Shown here one piece after another: positions 5,063 through 47,724 of a stretch of 47,724 bases of DNA; the first letter of the stretch is position 1, and every line of letters begins with the position of its first letter. The notes under the pieces were generated by a model that saw nothing but the letters and a program-made list of their open reading frames with translations, was not told the DNA's origin and did no database searches. This DNA is from Deltaproteobacteria bacterium (GTDB lineage: Bacteria; UBA10199; SBBF01): positions 1 to 47,724 of the forward strand of contig JACPFC010000092.1 in the NCBI GenBank assembly GCA_016183175.1, written 5' to 3'. The position numbers were made by a program, and so were the translations under genes.

Positions 5063-5150
5063 TTAGTGGCGGACGCCGGCATTACCCGGATCAGGTTCTT
5101 GGGGTCTGTTCTCAGTCCGCCACGACTACATAGCGGACACCCCCGGTTCC
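5063..5150 (-). promoter_or_regulatory. TPP (THI-box) riboswitch
   Basis: The minus strand carries the conserved THI-box parts in order: GGGGGTGTCC, a P3 stem GTCCGC/GCGGAC, CTGAGA, ACAGACCCC, AAGAACCTGATCCGGG and TAATGCCGGCG. It lies directly upstream of thiS. Downstream are an inverted repeat GTCCGCC/GGCGGAC (5068-5074 and 5051-5057) and an A-rich spacer rather than a U-tract. Control is therefore more likely at translation of thiS than by an intrinsic terminator. TPP binding would lower expression of the operon. Confidence 0.95.
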
Positions 5151-5204: not shown

Positions 5205-7313
5205 TTATTTCAGGCGGTCTGGGCGGGGGATGGCAGGGGAATCGGATTTCAGCGATTCGAGGTGCCGTTTGAATTCCTCGGCGCGGGTGAGGAGTTTTTG
5301 GTGGGGTTCCGTCCCTTGTAATCCAAGGACCTCCTGGTAGAATTCGTCGAACCTGCGTGGGATATCGGCATGAAGACGGTTCAGTTGTAAAATAATGTGG
5401 TGGATCCCTTTATCCAGGTCCTCCATATGGCCGACCATTTCTTTGACCTCGTCGTCCGAAATACGCCCTTTTGTCATTGCCGACTTTAAATGGTCCAGAT
5501 GACCCTTCAGGTGCTCTTCAAGTTCGTGAAGAGAAAAAAGTTCCAGCGAGGTTTTCCGCATCCGGTCTTCCAGCCTCGATTCCTCCCGCGGCGCCTTCAC
5601 CCATTCCTGCCACAAGAGCCCTGCAACAAAGATGCCGGCCAAAATCCCCTGAACCCCCGCCGATTCCAGCGAGGGAAAAATTCCCAGAGCGGGAAGGGTG
5701 AAAAATGGAATGGGGGTGCTTGGGATGAAATTTCCCTCCTGCAAGGAGTGAATTCCCTCCCCCGCAAAGACCACGGCGAGAAACAAAAGCATAATGCCGC
5801 TTGCACCAAAGAAAAGATTCAGCGGGATTTTTTTGCCGATTTTGAAAATCAGCCAGGAAGAAATTGCCAGAGCGGCAAAACCGATGATGACGCCAAACCC
5901 CAGAGAGAAGGATTGCCCCGCCGCCTGAAGGCGAAGGGCCTCAAAGAAGAGAATCGTCTCGAACGCCTCACGATAGACCGCCAGAAAGGCGGCAATGCCG
6001 ACGCTCAAAAAACCAAGGTTTTTTGCCCGCCGTATTTTGCCGATGAGGAAATTTTTCCAGACCCGCACATCCCGTTTGGCGAAAATCCAGAAGCTCACAT
6101 AAATCAGCACCATGGCGGCAACGAGGCTCACCCACCCCTCCATTCCCTCACGGGCCGCGCCGGAGATAACGCCACGGGCGATAAGCCAGGTGAGAAAGCC
6201 GACAATCAATGCGGCTGTCCAGCTCCCATGAACCCACCGGTTGAGGCGTCGGTCCTTCATGGCGCTGACGACAGACAAGATGATGGCAATGAGAAGAATT
6301 GCCTCCAGCCCTTCGCGGAAGATGATGGTAAATGAGGCCGCAAAGGCAACACCGGGCGAAAAAGAACCGCCCGCCGACAGCGCTTCCCGGCTCTTCTCCA
6401 GCGAATCCAGGAGATTTTTTCCCGTCGATTCGACATCTCCCTTGCCCCGGAGGGCGTTTCGAAAGGCCATGAAATTATTTTCCACTTCCGTCACCAGTTT
6501 TCCTTCCCCCATGGCGGATAAGACAGCTTCTGACTGCTCAAAGCCGTCGAGGTATGCGGAAACAGCGATATCGAGCGATCTTGACTCCATGCTTTCGCGG
6601 ACGAGTGAAATGGCCCTGTCGATTGAACCTGCCGCTTTTTTATTGTTGCCGCCTTCGTCCACCTCTCCGCCAGGCTGGAACAAGAAGCTTGTCACCGCCC
6701 AGCGGTCCTCCTCCGACAGGTTGGCAAAGGAGGGCATGGCGGTGCCATCAATGCCGAAGGTGATTGTGTTGAAGACCTTAAACGGCGTCAGCGCGCCGAT
6801 CACATCAGGGTCGGCAAACGCCGGGGGAGGGGGATCCATTATTTTTGCCGTTTCGGTATCAGCTTTTCCTGTCAGCCCGTGGCATTGGGCGCAACGCTCT
6901 CGGTAAATCTCCTTTCCCCGCGCCGGATCAGGAGGCGACTTTGGAGCGGTGACGATGGAAAATTCAGCGATTAATTTTGTTTTGAGACCGAGCGCCAGTT
7001 CCCGAACGTCTGCCGGCGGTTTTTTTTCCGCGATGGCCTCCTTAAGGTTTTTCTCGCCGGCACGAAGTGCGCTGTCAGGAACAACACCGGCGCTGTCAAG
7101 ATAGTGACCAACAAGGTCAATGAAATCGACCATCTCCCGGTACTCCATGTCGCTTAAGATTTTTTCCCCTTCGGGGGCCACCGCCATTTGATAGTCACCG
7201 GCAATATAGTCAAGAATGGCCACGGCCCGTTGGGGCGCGATCTTGTCTGCGGCGGCGCCGGCGGCAAGAGGAACAAGAAACAGCAGAAGAAAAAATTTAA
7301 TTGATTTGCCCAT
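5205..7313 (-). CDS. cytochrome c - FTR1 family iron permease fusion
   Basis: A 702-residue protein starting MGKSIKFFLLLFLVPLAAGA, a signal peptide. The ATG at 7313 overlaps the apbE stop; a longer frame upstream is only apbE shadow. Domains: a helical periplasmic region (25-125), a c-type cytochrome with CAQCH at 141-145 and probable axial Met193 in TAMPSF, a helical linker, and a seven-helix FTR1/EfeU permease with REGLE at 333-337 and REAFE at 448-452. These glutamate motifs are the iron-passing sites of the family. A soluble C-terminal helical tail follows. The cytochrome suggests that electron transfer is coupled to iron transport. Last gene of the iron/flavin operon. Confidence 0.92.
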   Translation of the reverse strand: MGKSIKFFLLLFLVPLAAGAAADKIAPQRAVAILDYIAGDYQMAVAPEGEKILSDMEYREMVDFIDLVGHYLDSAGVVPDSALRAGEKNLKEAIAEKKPPADVRELALGLKTKLIAEFSIVTAPKSPPDPARGKEIYRERCAQCHGLTGKADTETAKIMDPPPPAFADPDVIGALTPFKVFNTITFGIDGTAMPSFANLSEEDRWAVTSFLFQPGGEVDEGGNNKKAAGSIDRAISLVRESMESRSLDIAVSAYLDGFEQSEAVLSAMGEGKLVTEVENNFMAFRNALRGKGDVESTGKNLLDSLEKSREALSAGGSFSPGVAFAASFTIIFREGLEAILLIAIILSVVSAMKDRRLNRWVHGSWTAALIVGFLTWLIARGVISGAAREGMEGWVSLVAAMVLIYVSFWIFAKRDVRVWKNFLIGKIRRAKNLGFLSVGIAAFLAVYREAFETILFFEALRLQAAGQSFSLGFGVIIGFAALAISSWLIFKIGKKIPLNLFFGASGIMLLFLAVVFAGEGIHSLQEGNFIPSTPIPFFTLPALGIFPSLESAGVQGILAGIFVAGLLWQEWVKAPREESRLEDRMRKTSLELFSLHELEEHLKGHLDHLKSAMTKGRISDDEVKEMVGHMEDLDKGIHHIILQLNRLHADIPRRFDEFYQEVLGLQGTEPHQKLLTRAEEFKRHLESLKSDSPAIPRPDRLK

Positions 7314-8190
7314 TTTCGATAAAAATAAATTCAATGTCCGGAATTTTGTTCCGGATCGCCTCGATTTTTTCCTTTCCCATGATAAAGGCGGCCGTGTCCC
7401 ACGCATCGGCCAGAGAGGAATTTTTGGCAATGACGGTAACACTGCCGCTCCGCTCAACCGGCTTTTTTGTGTTGGCGTCGAATATGTGATGTCCCCGCTC
7501 ATACAGGCCGGAGGTGGAGACGGCCCGGTTTTTGATCTTCAGATTTAGGACCGGTTCTCCATCGGGATTTTCCGGATCCCGAATAGAAACCTTCCAGCGC
7601 CCCCGAGCCAGAATTTCACCGCCTGCATTAATCAAAAATTTTTTGAATCCCGCCTTTTTCAGCGAGTCGGCCATTTGATCGACGATGTAGCCTTTCGCAA
7701 TTCCGGAAACCGAGATATTTGTCCCTCTTTTCGAAAGTCGGGCGTAGAAATCCCCCCCACCCCCCCTTTGAGAAAGGGGGGTGACGCTCTTGTTCCCCCC
7801 TTTGAAAAAGGGGGGGTGGGGGGATTTGTCACCGCGAAGCTCGATGTCACGAAAAGTTACTGCTTTATCCGGTGACGCAAAAGTGACGTCGAACGCTCCA
7901 TTGGTCAAATCTGAAATCCTGAAGGATAGTTCAAGAATTCGTGTCAGGTGTTCCCCGATGGGCATCCATTCTCCTCCCGCATTTCGATTCAGGCGGGAGG
8001 TTTGGCTGTTGGGCCTGAATTCGCTCACCTCCCCCTCAATCTCGCGGGCCCGGTCAAATGCCTCTTCCATCGCGGTAAAAGCGGCTATTTTTTTCGATTC
8101 CGGCGCTTTAATCGTCAGGCTGACCGGGACATCCCCCATAAGCACCTGCGTGCGGGCAAAGAGGACTGCGGCAAAGAGAATTCTCTTCAT
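7297..8190 (-). CDS. apbE: FAD:protein FMN transferase, ApbE family
   Basis: A 297-residue protein with an N-terminal hydrophobic export signal. It transfers FMN from FAD onto a threonine of target proteins outside the cytoplasm. Motifs: SGIAKGYIVDQ (162-172), NAGGEI (188-193), AVSTSG (223-228), HIFDANT (235-241) and the metal-binding SLADAWDTAAFIMG (259-272). Residues about 121-148 (KSPHPPFFKGG...SQRGGGGDF) are not part of the family; they are encoded by a palindromic repeat inserted in frame. The start overlaps the preceding stop as ATGA. The likely substrate is the FMN-binding protein two genes upstream. Confidence 0.92.
   Translation of the reverse strand: MKRILFAAVLFARTQVLMGDVPVSLTIKAPESKKIAAFTAMEEAFDRAREIEGEVSEFRPNSQTSRLNRNAGGEWMPIGEHLTRILELSFRISDLTNGAFDVTFASPDKAVTFRDIELRGDKSPHPPFFKGGNKSVTPLSQRGGGGDFYARLSKRGTNISVSGIAKGYIVDQMADSLKKAGFKKFLINAGGEILARGRWKVSIRDPENPDGEPVLNLKIKNRAVSTSGLYERGHHIFDANTKKPVERSGSVTVIAKNSSLADAWDTAAFIMGKEKIEAIRNKIPDIEFIFIENGQIN
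7748..7827. repeat. repeat family R1, two arms, inside apbE
   Basis: A C-run/G-run inverted repeat (CCCCCCTTTGA...AAAGGGGGG) present twice head to tail with a 13-base spacer. It is read in frame by apbE as the PPFFKGG-type peptide. Related copies lie at 13788-13830 (rarA) and 47094-47174 (glycosyltransferase). Confidence 0.8.
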
Positions 8191-8702
8191 ATTTTTTTAA
8201 ACCACAATTCCCGAAGCGAGACGGCGGCCATAACGGCAATTGAAATCAGGATGGCGAACTGGGACAAGGGGAAAAGCCAGACCATTTTTGCCGAAACGTA
8301 GCGCAGGCACCATGGCGTGGCGTTGCTGACGAGGCTGGCGGCAAATGACAGAACGATAAAAAAAATCTTGGTCCGCCGTCCGGCGGACGAAAAGGCAAAA
8401 ATCAGCCCCAGAAAGGCAAACAGAAAAGGCTGGCTGAAGGTATGCACATGCGCGACGGAAAGCATCGTCCGGTAGTCCTGCGGGAGCATGATCGCTTCGT
8501 CTCCGGCCGATTCGTCTCCGCGGTAATAGGCAACGGTCTTCATCATGTCGAAATGGCTCCGGTCGAAGACCTGAAGGAGAGATACGCCGTATCCGGTCAG
8601 CAGGGTAAGTATCAGACAGGTGGCAAGCCACCTAAACGGCCCCGGCCAACGGCAGAGGGGAAAAGGATTGGCCGGTGGCCCTGCCGCCTTAATTTTTTCC
8701 AT
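8187..8702 (-). CDS. four-helix membrane protein of the iron/flavin operon
   Basis: A 171-residue integral membrane protein of no family I can name with certainty. Hydrophobic segments lie near residues 24-46, 88-106, 112-132 and 141-166. A soluble loop of about 40 residues follows the first helix and contains H50. H85 and H87 (AHVHTFSQPF) sit at the mouth of the second helix and could be heme or metal ligands. It overlaps the FMN-binding gene by 14 bases and the apbE start by four, so it is certainly part of this operon. By context it may pass electrons between membrane carriers and the flavoprotein; this is inference only. Confidence 0.75.
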   Translation of the reverse strand: MEKIKAAGPPANPFPLCRWPGPFRWLATCLILTLLTGYGVSLLQVFDRSHFDMMKTVAYYRGDESAGDEAIMLPQDYRTMLSVAHVHTFSQPFLFAFLGLIFAFSSAGRRTKIFFIVLSFAASLVSNATPWCLRYVSAKMVWLFPLSQFAILISIAVMAAVSLRELWFKKI

Positions 8703-9225
8703 AAAATACCTTCCAGAGAAACAATGCCCGTTTGACCCCCCGCGCCACCCCTTTTACCGAAAGGGTTGCGCCGGTGATGTTTGTAATATCCTGCCCCGCC
8801 TTAAACGGCTGATCGGCGTTTTTCCCTTTGAATTGATCGACAAACCGCCTTTCGTGTACTGCGCTCCCGTGCGATTCGCGGTAGACGAGTACTTCCACCG
8901 CTTTCACCTCCCCCTTTGGCGTGATCGCCGTCAAGAAGGTGATCGGCTCGGTTTTCCCGATTTCGTTGTCCACCAAGGCATAACCGTCAATCCGGCCCCC
9001 GGTTTTGGCCACGGCAAACTCCCACTCGGTTTTTCGCAATTTCGATTTGAGCTCTTTTTCGACAGCGGTTTTTTGTTCCTCCATCAGAGTTTTCCGTTCG
9101 TTGACAAAGGTGGAGGAGGGGAAGATGAATTTGAGCGCCTCTTCTTTTGTCAGGTAAACCGTGGTCTGCCCCCAAGCGCCTTGCGGCAGAAGGATGAGGA
9201 GCAGAAGAAAGAACATGCGCATCAT
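8689..9225 (-). CDS. secreted FMN-binding domain protein (NqrC/RnfG type)
   Basis: A 178-residue protein with a clear signal peptide (MMRMFFLLLLILLPQGAWG). The C-terminal half carries the flavinylation motif DITNITGATLS (146-156). In this family ApbE links FMN to the threonine of the GAT triplet, here T154. GKTEPITFLTAITPKGEVKAVEVLVYRESHG is the typical FMN-binding domain core. The gene lies 37 bases after the barrel gene and overlaps the next gene. With ApbE in the same operon the flavin would be attached in the periplasm, giving a one- or two-electron carrier. Confidence 0.9.
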   Translation of the reverse strand: MMRMFFLLLLILLPQGAWGQTTVYLTKEEALKFIFPSSTFVNERKTLMEEQKTAVEKELKSKLRKTEWEFAVAKTGGRIDGYALVDNEIGKTEPITFLTAITPKGEVKAVEVLVYRESHGSAVHERRFVDQFKGKNADQPFKAGQDITNITGATLSVKGVARGVKRALFLWKVFYGKN

Positions 9226-9262
9226 GCCGTTTCAATATCTCCAAGTGCGATGCCCTTGTAAA

Positions 9263-10039
9263 TTAAAAAAGAACGCCGGCAATCACTCTCGCCTCGATGG
9301 CCTCGTGTTCATCCAGGTTTCGGCCGCCGTTTTTCAAATCGAGAATTTGCGGCAAGAGGGTGAATGTCACCCACGCCTTTGTCCCCTCGTAATGGATATT
9401 CGGACCGACAAACAGGACAGAATGTTCGTATTCATTATAATGCGCCCATTCGCTATGGACGCGGGCCTCGAGGCCCAAAGACCAGTGGGGGCTTAGTTTG
9501 TAGGCCAGACCGAGGGTTTGTTCCAATTCAAGCTCGGTGAGCACTTCATCGTCCTCGAATTCCCAGACATGTTCCGCTATCAGATTCATGGCCAGGATCC
9601 ATTTTTCCCCAAAGATGTGCTCCAGAATGATTTTTTCCTCCCACTCCACTTCTTCACCTTCATACTTCGCCTCTCCGTAAAGGAGGAGCCCAAGCCATTT
9701 TGTATGGGGGCTCAAGACCATGTACTTCCACTCGGACGAAACTCCCTTGAATTCAAAGGCGTCGGCGCCGTCATCGTGGACATCCCGGAAGTTGAGATAG
9801 AGAGCGGTGGTCAGCCGGTCAGTCAGGCCGGTTTCGATTTCCTCGCGGAAGTCGAAACGGTAAAAATTTTGGGTATTTTTCACCGTTCGGAGGGTCAGCC
9901 ACTGTTCGAATTCCCATTTCCCCTTTGGAAGCACGGAATCGGCTTCATAGCTGTAGGTAAAATGGCGGGCATCGGCCCAGGCGGATAATGCCGCCGCCAT
10001 GGTCCCAATCATGACAATCAAACTTAGAGCATGTTTCAT
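9263..10039 (-). CDS. predicted outer-membrane beta-barrel protein (DUF6662-like)
   Basis: A 258-residue protein with signal peptide MKHALSLIVMIGTMAAALSAWA. The rest alternates aromatic and charged residues as in a barrel of about 10-12 strands (for example WEFEQWLTLRTVKN, KIILEHIFGEKWILAMNL) and ends in phenylalanine, the usual assembly signal. The ATG at 10039 was chosen over the longer open frame because a GGAG ribosome site and the signal peptide start there. The sequence recalls the DUF6662 group. As first gene of the iron/flavin operon it may be a pore or sensor for the substrate, but no ligand can be read from it. Confidence 0.75.
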   Translation of the reverse strand: MKHALSLIVMIGTMAAALSAWADARHFTYSYEADSVLPKGKWEFEQWLTLRTVKNTQNFYRFDFREEIETGLTDRLTTALYLNFRDVHDDGADAFEFKGVSSEWKYMVLSPHTKWLGLLLYGEAKYEGEEVEWEEKIILEHIFGEKWILAMNLIAEHVWEFEDDEVLTELELEQTLGLAYKLSPHWSLGLEARVHSEWAHYNEYEHSVLFVGPNIHYEGTKAWVTFTLLPQILDLKNGGRNLDEHEAIEARVIAGVLF

Positions 10040-10077
10040 GCGGTTCTCCTTTTTGGCTGGTTGTGGTTGATGGGCAA

Positions 10078-10113
10078 ATTTTATGAAATTGCAAATCACT
10101 TTCAATTTCATAA
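10078..10113 (-). promoter_or_regulatory. operon promoter with overlapping 11-bp palindromic operator
   Basis: On the minus strand TTGAAA (10100-10105), 16 bases and TAAAAT (10078-10083) form a promoter for the barrel-FMN-ApbE-FTR1 operon. A perfect inverted repeat TTATGAAATTG / CAATTTCATAA (10081-10091 and 10103-10113, 11-base centre) covers the spacer and both boxes. A repressor bound here would block RNA polymerase. Given the iron genes, an iron-sensing regulator is a guess; the sequence is not a canonical Fur box. Confidence 0.6.
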
Positions 10114-13174: not shown

Positions 13175-14502
13175 TGTTTCTTTCATATCCGATGTCTGTC
13201 GGGTGATAATATTTTTTCCCCTTCAGTTTTTCCGGCAGATGCTCCTGGTCCACAATATGGTCTTTTTCGTCGTGGGCGTATTTGTACCCTTTGCCGTAGC
13301 CCAGATTTTTCATCAGTTTGGTCGGGGCATTGCGCAGATGCATGGGGGTCGGTAGTGGGCCGAATTGTTCGACATCGGACTTGGCGGACAGATAAGACAT
13401 ATAGGACGCATTGCTCTTCGGGGCGCCTGCCAGATAAGTGGCGCACTGTGCGAGTGGAATCCAACCTTCCGGCATGCCGACAAAGTCAAAGCTCTGCATG
13501 CAACTAATCGCCACCTGGACCGCCTGCGGGTCGGCATTGCCGACATCCTCGCTGGCAAAAATAACCATTCTTCTGGCCAGAAACAACGGTTCCTCCCCCG
13601 CCTCCAGCATCCGCGCCAGATAATATACGGCCGCGTCCGGGTCCGAACCACGCATGCTCTTGATAAAGGCGGAGATCAGATTGTAATGCTCCTCGCCCGA
13701 TTTGTCGTAGAGGAGCGCTTTCTTTTGCAGGGCCGATTCGATGTGGGGGAGGGTGAGGGTGGATGGTGGATCGTCGATCGATGAAATCCCCCCCGGCCCC
13801 CCTTTTTCAAAGGGGGGGGGAGGGGGGATTTTTCAACAATGATACCGCTGTCTCCAGCGTATTCAACATCCTTCGCGCATCTCCATCGCTTGATTCGCAG
13901 AGATATTCTTCCGCCTCGGCGGCCGTTTTGATTTTTAATTTTCCCAATCCCCTTTTTTCATCCATCAGCGCGAAACGAAGAATTTTTTTCAAATCGTCCG
14001 TCGTCAGTGTTTTAAGAACCAGCACCTTGCATCGGGACAAAAGGGGGGAGACGACCTCAAATGAAGGATTCTCCGTCGTGGCGCCGATGAAAATAATCGT
14101 CCCTTTTTCGATGTACGGCAAAAAGGCGTCCTGCTGGGCCTTGTTGAAGCGGTGGATTTCGTCCACAAAAAGGATGGTTCGTTTTCCGTAGAGCTTCAGT
14201 TGACTGTCCGCCTCCGCAATCATCTCTTTGACCTCTTTAATGCCGGAGGTCACGGCAGACAGCGGGACGAATCGGCAATCCTTTTTTTTCGCCAACAGGA
14301 AGGCGAGAGTGGTTTTTCCCGAGCCGGGCGGACCCCAGAAAATCAGGGAGGGGAGGATGGGGGATTCAAAGACCTGCGTCAAAAATTTTCCGGGACCGAC
14401 GATGTGGCTTTGTCCCGCAAATTCCTCAAACGTCTGTGGCCTCATCCGGTCGGCCAAAGGGGCGAGTGATTGCACATTTTGGGAAAAGAGATCGTTGGAC
14501 AT
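13131..14502 (-). pseudogene. rarA: rarA (MgsA) AAA ATPase, frameshifted in a poly-C tract
   Basis: Two frames together encode a replication-associated recombination protein. The first (14502 to a TGA at 13807) has PLADRMRPQTFEEFAGQ, Walker A GPPGSGKTT, Walker B FVDEIHRF and the sensor region GATTENPSFE. The second (about 13811-13131) has ALLYDKSGEEHYNLISAFIKSMRGSDPDAA and the C-terminal tetramerisation domain ending near KKYYHPTDIGYERNIREWL. The break lies in a run of nine C (13812-13820) inside an R1 repeat; one C fewer would restore the frame. The repeat would then encode a linker like NPPSPPFEKGG. It may be real, phase-variable or a sequencing error. A leader repeat of family R2 ends four bases before the start. 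Confidence 0.88.
13788..13830. repeat. repeat family R1 copy inside rarA
   Basis: A G-run/C-run inverted repeat (CCCCCCTTTTT / AAAGGGGGG, plus strand) of the same kind as in apbE and the glycosyltransferase. It contains the nine-base homopolymer at which rarA loses frame. Confidence 0.75.
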
Positions 14503-46492: not shown

Positions 46493-47724
46493 ATGAAAAT
46501 GAAGCTTCTCTTTATCAACTATGAGTTCCCTCCGTTAGGGGGAGGAGGGGGAAATGCCAATGAACAGATTGCCCGTCACTTGGCGGCATTGGGGCATGAG
46601 GTGGTGGTGCTGACCTCCCGTTTTAAGGGCCTCCCCAGGGAAGAAACCCGTGACGGCTATCGGATCGTCCGCATTCCCACCCTTCGGCGTTATCAGGAAA
46701 AATGCTGGGTCTTTGAAATGGCGGTCTTCATGTTTTCGTCGATTTTTTATGCCCCCAAATGGGCCCGCCGGTGGCGCCCCGACCGGTGCATTGCCTTTTT
46801 TACCCTTCCCAGTGCCCCGGCGGCGTGGGTGATCAAGAAAATTTTTGGGGTTCCCTATATCGTCTCTCTCCGCGGCGGCGATGTCCCCGGTTTCCTGCCC
46901 GAGCAGTTGCGTTTTTATCACCGGATAACGGCCTGGCTGATCCGGTTTTTGTGGAAAGGGGCCGAAAGCATTGTGGCCAACAGCGAAGGGTTAAAGAGGC
47001 TGGCCCTTGGGACAGGGAGGGGGTTGGATATAGCCATTATCCCCAACGGTGTGGACGCCGGTTTTTTCCGGAATAGTGTTTTGTCGAATGATAAAATCCC
47101 CCCTTTGGCACCGGTTGAACCGGCTCAGCCGGCCCTGCCGGTCCCCCCTTTGACAAAGGGGGGGAGGGGGGATTTCGAGACACGCAATGTTTTCCGTATC
47201 CTCACCGCCGGCCGCTTAACCGCCCAAAAGGGGATCGACACCCTCCTTCAATCCTTTTGCCGCCTCAAGCCGTCCTTGAAAAAACCGGTCCAGCTCTGGA
47301 TTGTGGGAGACGGCCCCCTCCGGTCTTCTCTGGAAGATCTGACGGCCGATCTGGGAATCCGGAACGATGTCTTCTTTCTGGGTTGGCGTGATCGTGAAAC
47401 GTTGAAGACTTTTTACTCCTCTGCTGATCTTTTTATCCTCCCCTCGCTCGATGAAGGGATGCCCAACGTGGTGCTGGAGGCGATGGCGATGGGGCTCCCG
47501 ATTGTGGCCACCAATGTCGCCGGGACGCGCGAACTGGTGCGGGAGGGGAAAAACGGCTATCTGGTCCCCCCAAAAAATCCGGAGGCGCTTGCCGACATCC
47601 TCTCCCAGTTGATTTCCCGGGACGATCTTCTGCAGGAAATGTCCCGCCAGTCCCGCCTCCTTGCCCGGCAGTACGACTGGAAGGCCGTGGCGCTGGAATA
47701 CTTAAGACTCTGCGAGACAGCCGC
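46493..47724 (+). CDS. GT4 family glycosyltransferase, 3' end outside the window
   Basis: About 410 codons run to the edge without a stop. MKMKLLFINYEFPPLGGGGGN is the GT-B N-terminal start with the glycine loop. Further signatures are SLRGGDVPGF, NSEGLKRLA, PNGVDAGFF, LTAGRLTAQKGIDTLL and the nucleotide-sugar EX7E motif EGMPNVVLE followed by AMGLPIVATNVAGTREL. It is a retaining GT4 enzyme, probably for lipopolysaccharide or another cell-surface glycan; the donor is unknown. Residues between the two Rossmann halves (KIPPLAPVEP...PPLTKGGRGDF) are encoded by an R1 repeat in frame. Two possible ATG starts (46493 and 46499). Confidence 0.88.
   Translation, partial: MKMKLLFINYEFPPLGGGGGNANEQIARHLAALGHEVVVLTSRFKGLPREETRDGYRIVRIPTLRRYQEKCWVFEMAVFMFSSIFYAPKWARRWRPDRCIAFFTLPSAPAAWVIKKIFGVPYIVSLRGGDVPGFLPEQLRFYHRITAWLIRFLWKGAESIVANSEGLKRLALGTGRGLDIAIIPNGVDAGFFRNSVLSNDKIPPLAPVEPAQPALPVPPLTKGGRGDFETRNVFRILTAGRLTAQKGIDTLLQSFCRLKPSLKKPVQLWIVGDGPLRSSLEDLTADLGIRNDVFFLGWRDRETLKTFYSSADLFILPSLDEGMPNVVLEAMAMGLPIVATNVAGTRELVREGKNGYLVPPKNPEALADILSQLISRDDLLQEMSRQSRLLARQYDWKAVALEYLRLCETA
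47094..47174. repeat. repeat family R1 copy inside the glycosyltransferase
   Basis: AAATCCCCCCTTTGG at the left and CCCCCCTTTGACAAAGGGGG then GAGGGGGGATTT at the right, with an inner CCGGTTGAACCGG hairpin. It is translated without breaking the frame, at the linker between the two GT-B domains. Confidence 0.8.

Follow-up and report, generated by a model that had tools for sequence, protein, structure and literature searches.

A flavin-associated gene module found beside iron-uptake genes and joined to a cytochrome c–FTR1 permease in a deltaproteobacterial operon

We analyzed a 47,724-nucleotide stretch, termed the window, from a Deltaproteobacteria bacterium (assembly GCA_016183175.1, contig JACPFC010000092.1, positions 1 to 47,724), in which five minus-strand genes had been read in an initial annotation as one tight operon for flavin-linked iron uptake. 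In operon order, these encode an outer-membrane barrel, an exported flavin mononucleotide (FMN)-binding protein of the FMN_bind family, a four-helix membrane protein with the working name 4TM, the FMN transferase ApbE and a fusion of cytochrome c with the permease FTR1. Gene order, Pfam assignments and junctions consisting of a 37-bp gap followed by overlaps of 14, 4 and 17 bp bore out this operon of five named parts. The first gene (9263..10039, minus strand) encodes 258 amino acids (aa), counted from an ATG with an AGGAG ribosome site, and matches DUF6662 and Phenol_MetA_deg above the Pfam cut-offs. Its AlphaFold model consists of strands for the most part (predicted local distance difference test (pLDDT) score of 73), and the best Foldseek matches of the model were FapF (5o65) and the COG4313 outer-membrane channel 4rl8. 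Barrel homologues also occur near the FMN_bind and 4TM genes at compared loci (L-numbers) L033/L053, L034, L042/L060 and L079–L081, consistent with an outer-membrane β-barrel channel of the DUF6662/Phenol_MetA_deg type.

The second gene (8689..9225, minus strand) encodes a 178-aa, RnfG-like protein with a hydrophobic leader at the N terminus, recognized by eye, and a Pfam FMN_bind domain (42.2 bits). Flavinylation motifs follow the consensus (D/N)xx(S/T)GA(T/S); here, the motif reads DITNITGATLS, with TGAT at residues 151–154, and G152, T154 and S156 are invariant across 19 aligned sequences. The proposed flavinylation motif on a secreted FMN-binding protein is, thus, intact and accompanied by ApbE in the cluster, with T154 as the likely attachment site judging from the sequence. 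Against the RnfG/NqrC equivalog model TIGR01947, the protein scored 41 bits (cut-off of 102), and no second FMN_bind protein was found in the window’s genome (G000; other G-numbers denote compared genomes); together, these results do not place it in an Rnf or Nqr complex. The 297-aa ApbE (7297..8190, minus strand; Pfam ApbE, 183 bits) has solved PDB relatives, 4xdt among others, that are flavin adenine dinucleotide:protein FMN transferases. Two copies of a 21-base palindrome, CCCCCCTTTGAAAAAGGGGGG, at 7761–7815 form an in-frame insert of ~25 residues in apbE that is absent from 12 other ApbE sequences. In all, the window contains four copies of the palindrome, compared with 0.03 expected matches; the other two lie at 13797–13817 and 47143–47163. 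A second, higher-scoring ApbE is encoded on G000 contig C90 (2659–3495), while the genome yielded only the one FMN_bind protein.

Between these two genes, 4TM (8187..8702, minus strand; 171 aa) matched no Pfam family, either as the window protein or when 19 homologues were scanned. Its AlphaFold model comprises four long helices (pLDDT 91.5). Only H85 and H87 are invariant in an alignment of 21 4TM sequences, and the model places this HxH pair ~10 residues into the second long helix. The histidines, initially described as exposed, therefore lie near the start of a helix and not in an exposed loop. Provided that the basic loops are cytoplasmic, the HxH side would be periplasmic. A profile search against the PDB returned nothing, Foldseek gave no match at E < 0.001 and a second fold comparison recovered generic helical bundles only (Z at most 8.3); because nothing beyond generic bundles emerged, a fold or relative of 4TM is neither claimed nor excluded. 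The central haem-ligand histidines of DUF4405-, PepSY- or MsrQ-type cytochromes (four in DUF4405) are absent, and none of the 19 members matched such a Pfam family. A 4TM paralogue in G011 (L089:6700–7407) keeps the HxH pair and has a c-type haem motif, CxxCH, inserted into the loop preceding the HxH helix, which fits an electron-transfer role of 4TM with exchangeable partners.

To delimit the conserved unit, we compared 46 genomes of the same class and ran a 4TM profile over 99 genomes. A close FMN_bind homologue was present in 18 of the 46 class genomes, with weak matches in four more. FTR1 occurred in four of the 46 and shared a contig with the FMN_bind and 4TM genes only in the window’s genome, for which reason it was rejected as a member of the conserved set. 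The five-gene combination did not hold up in relatives, as FTR1 was absent from the contig carrying the close FMN_bind homologue in each of the 17 other class genomes that have one. The search did recover a four-gene core, as barrel, FMN_bind, 4TM and ApbE recur in the same order, without FTR1, in G001 (L033) and G004 (L034). The 4TM profile matched 20 of the 99 genomes, namely G074, G093 and the same 18 class genomes. Each of these 20 also carries FMN_bind, so that no genome in the sample of 99 had 4TM alone. FMN_bind genes without a nearby 4TM were found in G050, at the Nitrospina-type loci L063, L064, L067, L069, L070 and L072 and at L068; in G006, the module is split, with FMN_bind beside the barrel at one place and 4TM paired with ApbE elsewhere. 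A scan of named genomes added 30 places in Deltaproteobacteria-labelled metagenome-assembled genomes (MAGs), Myxococcales including Archangium, Nitrospina, a Terriglobia MAG and others, some of them contigs already in the set, leaving 40 loci after removal of duplicates. Within the stretch examined, 32 of these loci contain 4TM and 19 contain ApbE. A larger barrel (cluster c2) is present at 23 of the 40, mostly beside FMN_bind, with a weak Porin_O_P signal in L044; against the PDB, it gave a single match at E 0.077, and a profile search of G000, run without a positive control, gave no match. The conserved unit, hereafter the module, is, thus, FMN_bind plus 4TM, which ApbE and a barrel often accompany. 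At the Nitrospina MAG loci L063, L064, L067, L070 and L072, FMN_bind is followed by a gene of cluster c13, the L063 member of which is a Ysc84-domain protein.

Gene clusters neighboring the module were identified as FUR-family regulators, FeoB, FeoA, ExbB and ExbD. A FUR gene lay no more than 8 kb from FMN_bind in 12 of 21 genomes (two of the 21 had no FUR match), as compared to 0.19 expected from copy numbers and genome sizes with shared ancestry ignored. Among the 40 loci, again within 8 kb, we counted FUR at 18, full-length FeoB at seven, FeoA at six, ExbB at five and ExbD at five; at least one of these markers was present at 20, and L051 adds FTR1. Three 300-aa Nitrospina proteins matched by the FeoB profile (L063, L067 and L072) were discarded because a FeoB would be longer, which reduced the FeoB loci from ten to seven and left L072 without an iron marker. 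FUR neighbors also appear at L062, L063, L067, L068, L074 and L075, all outside the class contig set, with FUR-family membership alone not separating Fur from Zur or PerR. In the G074 phylum, all three genomes compared have FeoA and FeoB after 4TM on the same strand; ahead of 4TM stands an FMN_bind–ApbE fusion in two of them (L095 and L050) and, in the third (L094), the end of an ApbE at the contig edge. At L054, a DtxR-type iron repressor gene lies between feoB and the module, and at L051 from another phylum (G093), an FTR1–FtrD fusion, FtsX and ATP-binding cassette (ABC) genes precede ApbE, the c2 barrel, FMN_bind and 4TM. A ZIP transporter–cupredoxin domain fusion (L044:4371–5459) adjoins FUR and ExbB/ExbD genes. 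The proposed link to iron uptake, with electrons passing through an ApbE-made flavoprotein, therefore has good comparative support, although the association in relatives runs via Fur, FeoA/FeoB, ExbB/ExbD and, in one other phylum, an FTR1–FtrD fusion, and not by the route initially proposed.

We also searched upstream of the module’s first gene for Fur-box-like sites, defined as 15-mers that agree with TGANAATNATTNTCA in at least 10 of its 12 fixed positions. Such sites occurred at 12 of the 40 loci versus 18 of 346 other upstream regions (Fisher p 6.8e-6); among these background sites, fur genes themselves account for three of the seven strongest. After the operon starts of L038, L060, L069 and L070 had been corrected or dropped by hand, the count was 14 of 40, whereas 100 shuffled sets averaged 0.8 and never exceeded 3. 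The window has an inverted repeat upstream of the operon at 10083..10111, ATGAAATTG-11-CAATTTCAT, which contains the Fur-box-like TGAAAGTGATTTGCA (10090–10104, minus strand). Because the set is enriched but the window palindrome is weak, Fur regulation is likely for the module family and only suggested for the window’s operon.

The last gene of the operon (5205..7313, minus strand) encodes the 702-aa cytochrome c–FTR1 protein; a longer open reading frame was rejected because its start is too early. The protein comprises a leader, a mono-haem c domain (CAQCH at residue 141), the FTR1 domain and a helical C-terminal tail, with FTR1 (PF03239, 66 bits) and Cytochrome_CBB3/Cytochrom_C above the Pfam cut-offs and both RExxE motifs present in FTR1 (REGLE 333 and REAFE 448). 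The tail (5205–5600) spans more than 100 residues, is rich in histidine and glutamate and is conserved in G001 and G005. The window protein is 50% identical to the fusion in G001, which overlaps the end of fur, and 45% identical to that in G005, which comes after fur and before a gene adjoining an apparent fabH (by eye). At the matching locus in G000, fur and the flanking genes are kept at 52–78% identity and there is no FTR1. Because of this arrangement, the fusion gene appears to have left its place beside fur and become the last gene of the flavin operon in the window’s lineage, which is the simplest reading of the gene orders; an independent gain of FTR1 at the flavin operon is a conceivable, if less simple, alternative. 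A scan of genome contigs with the window’s fusion returned no relative. The protein scored 88 bits against the EfeU equivalog model NF041756 (cut-off of 255), and no EfeO or EfeB is encoded among the five genes. They include an FTR1 permease with RExxE motifs, as in P19/FTR1 operons, and lack P19 (PF10634), FtrD (PF10080) and ABC permease genes; an operon of this type with P19, FtrD and ABC permease genes occurs in G006. No Rfam family matched the window at the gathering threshold. At a relaxed threshold only, a thiamine pyrophosphate riboswitch match (38.2 bits versus a gathering score of 54.3; E 6.4e-6) lies at 5070–5144 on the minus strand, downstream of FTR1 and upstream of apparent thiamine synthesis genes (by eye).

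FTR1 might be a passenger that arrived behind apbE by chance and retains its own function, as its presence on the module’s contig in only one of the 18 class genomes with the module would suggest. We consider this improbable, since the FTR1 start overlaps apbE by 17 bp, the gene apparently derives from a fur neighborhood and FTR1 also meets the module at L051 in a different architecture. With moderate confidence, we instead favor a reading of the core as an iron-reducing module of the periplasm, probably under Fur control, which in the window would be coupled to a cytochrome c–FTR1 protein that apparently moved from beside fur. FeoB imports Fe(II) and is the commonest importer neighbor of the module, which would, therefore, most likely reduce periplasmic Fe(III). 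As relatives keep the module near other iron-import and iron-sensing genes, this reduction outside the cytoplasm probably serves uptake. The window’s genome yielded no protein of the Ferric_reduct family, which we count in favor of this reading.

In the proposed route, ApbE would attach FMN to the exported FMN_bind protein, in which the motif is observed. 4TM in the inner membrane may pass electrons to the FMN, most likely from quinol near the periplasm-facing HxH, and the flavoprotein may then reduce Fe(III) arriving through the outer-membrane channel. Fe(II) would pass to an inner-membrane importer, which gene linkage suggests to be FeoAB in several relatives and gene order suggests to be the cytochrome c–FTR1 permease of the same operon in the window. 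There, the cytochrome c domain, placed between reductase and FTR1, may re-oxidize iron at the channel or act as an electron relay. The opposite flow would have Fe(II) oxidized at the FTR1 mouth, with cytochrome c taking the electron and the FMN/4TM chain passing it to the quinone pool. The fusion of cytochrome c to FTR1 in the window, G001 and G005 agrees with such a scheme, as does the classical coupling of FTR1 proteins to iron oxidation. We regard it as very unlikely given that the module stands most often beside FeoB, which requires Fe(II), and that G005 has the cytochrome c–FTR1 fusion but no match to FMN_bind or 4TM. Of the two electron directions initially offered, reduction is, thus, favored by the FeoB neighbors, while withdrawal of electrons from Fe(II) is disfavored.

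Several observations weigh against an iron-reducing module coupled to FTR1. The G005 fusion implies that such an FTR1 can exist without the module, and 19 of the 40 loci, many on short contigs, have neither FTR1 nor any iron marker sought. In the window’s own genome, fur and feoB lie on contigs other than that of the window. The site TGAAAGTGATTTGCA, 50 bp before the barrel start, scores 10 of 12, which 66 of 1,000 shuffles of the region reach, and when no more than one mismatch is allowed, the pattern gives nine sites in G000 (two for the reversed control) and none in the window. The repeat-derived insert may impair the window’s ApbE, though a second ApbE exists. The 4TM model matches nothing beyond generic helical bundles, and we know of no cofactor site formed by HxH on one helix. 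Lastly, at L061 (3–3789), FMN_bind, 4TM and ApbE stand directly behind genes for cytochrome oxidase subunits I, III and IV (COX1/COX3/COX4). This arrangement would suit a Fur-regulated substitution of flavin for haem, in which the module serves ordinary periplasmic or respiratory redox under iron shortage and its iron neighbors reflect shared regulation only. The c-type haem motif in the loop of the G011 paralogue points the same way, as does the discussion of flavin/cytochrome interchange and iron-poor settings in PMC8238504. Because the linkage extends beyond Fur to importers, with FeoAB in operon order and FTR1, we judge this substitution unlikely.

A bolder version of the iron-reducing reading, which we put forward only tentatively and hold to be somewhat doubtful, is that FMN_bind plus 4TM(HxH) represents a class of membrane reductase not described before, which would pass electrons from quinol to flavin specifically for iron import, occur in several phyla and serve FeoAB, P19-type FTR1 or cytochrome c–FTR1. 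In the window, its combination with cytochrome c–FTR1 would make a bacterial counterpart of yeast reductive uptake, reducing and then re-oxidizing iron at the permease. The yeast Fre1–Fet3–Ftr1 system combines a flavin reductase, an electron-accepting domain and the Ftr1 permease, with iron re-oxidized. The likeness is an analogy only; the reductase is unrelated, and the window has a cytochrome c where yeast has a multicopper oxidase.

Flavin-plus-FTR1 iron uptake itself is already published (PMC6083913 and PMC8238504). As described in these articles, the P19/FTR1/FtrD/ABC operon of Campylobacter jejuni (1649–1656) and its homologues pair the permease FTR1 with a redox protein outside the cytoplasm. 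The redox protein of FTR1 operons in Actinobacteria, Firmicutes, Spirochaetes and Synergistetes is FMN-binding and proposed to reduce ferric iron (PMC6083913), and 260 P19 clusters with FMN-binding genes are reported (PMC8238504). The window operon shares with them FTR1 and an extracytoplasmic redox protein but lacks P19, FtrD and ABC genes, has 4TM and a barrel and carries FTR1 as a cytochrome c fusion; L051, which resembles the Campylobacter P19-type operon (PMC6083913), unites parts of both architectures. Membrane electron-transfer types associated with flavinylation include NapH, MsrQ, PepSY, DsbD, Nqr/Rnf-like proteins and DUF4405, of which the PepSY and MsrQ types are linked to iron reduction and VIT1 (PMC8238504 and PMC11334425), and the DUF4405 and FezC cytochromes rest on four central histidines (PMC11334425). 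As in the window, these systems join ApbE, a flavoprotein and a membrane partner, whereas 4TM differs from the membrane proteins described there in having no Pfam match and one HxH pair, not four central histidines. The HiuB/FoxB PepSY ferri-siderophore reductases, which supply FeoAB (PMC12424826), resemble the proposed module in Fur-regulated periplasmic reduction ahead of ferrous import. They differ in using a PepSY-family membrane protein with putative haem histidines, and FMN and ApbE go unmentioned in the available text of PMC12424826. The open-access literature searched yielded no paper on the FMN_bind/4TM module, its HxH partner or the Feo linkage, and in PMC8238504, a main-text search found ‘Feo’ in the reference list only. 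The membrane component 4TM is, thus, possibly new.

How periplasmic Fe(II) is supplied to FeoB is unsettled in many bacteria, and a compact flavin module whose membrane partner is possibly new, arranged in operon order with FeoAB and, in separate cases, found with FTR1 of two kinds, offers a testable candidate. It also provides a function hypothesis for an unnamed membrane protein family bearing an invariant HxH, and 4TM would be one more membrane protein known to feed flavoproteins made by ApbE.

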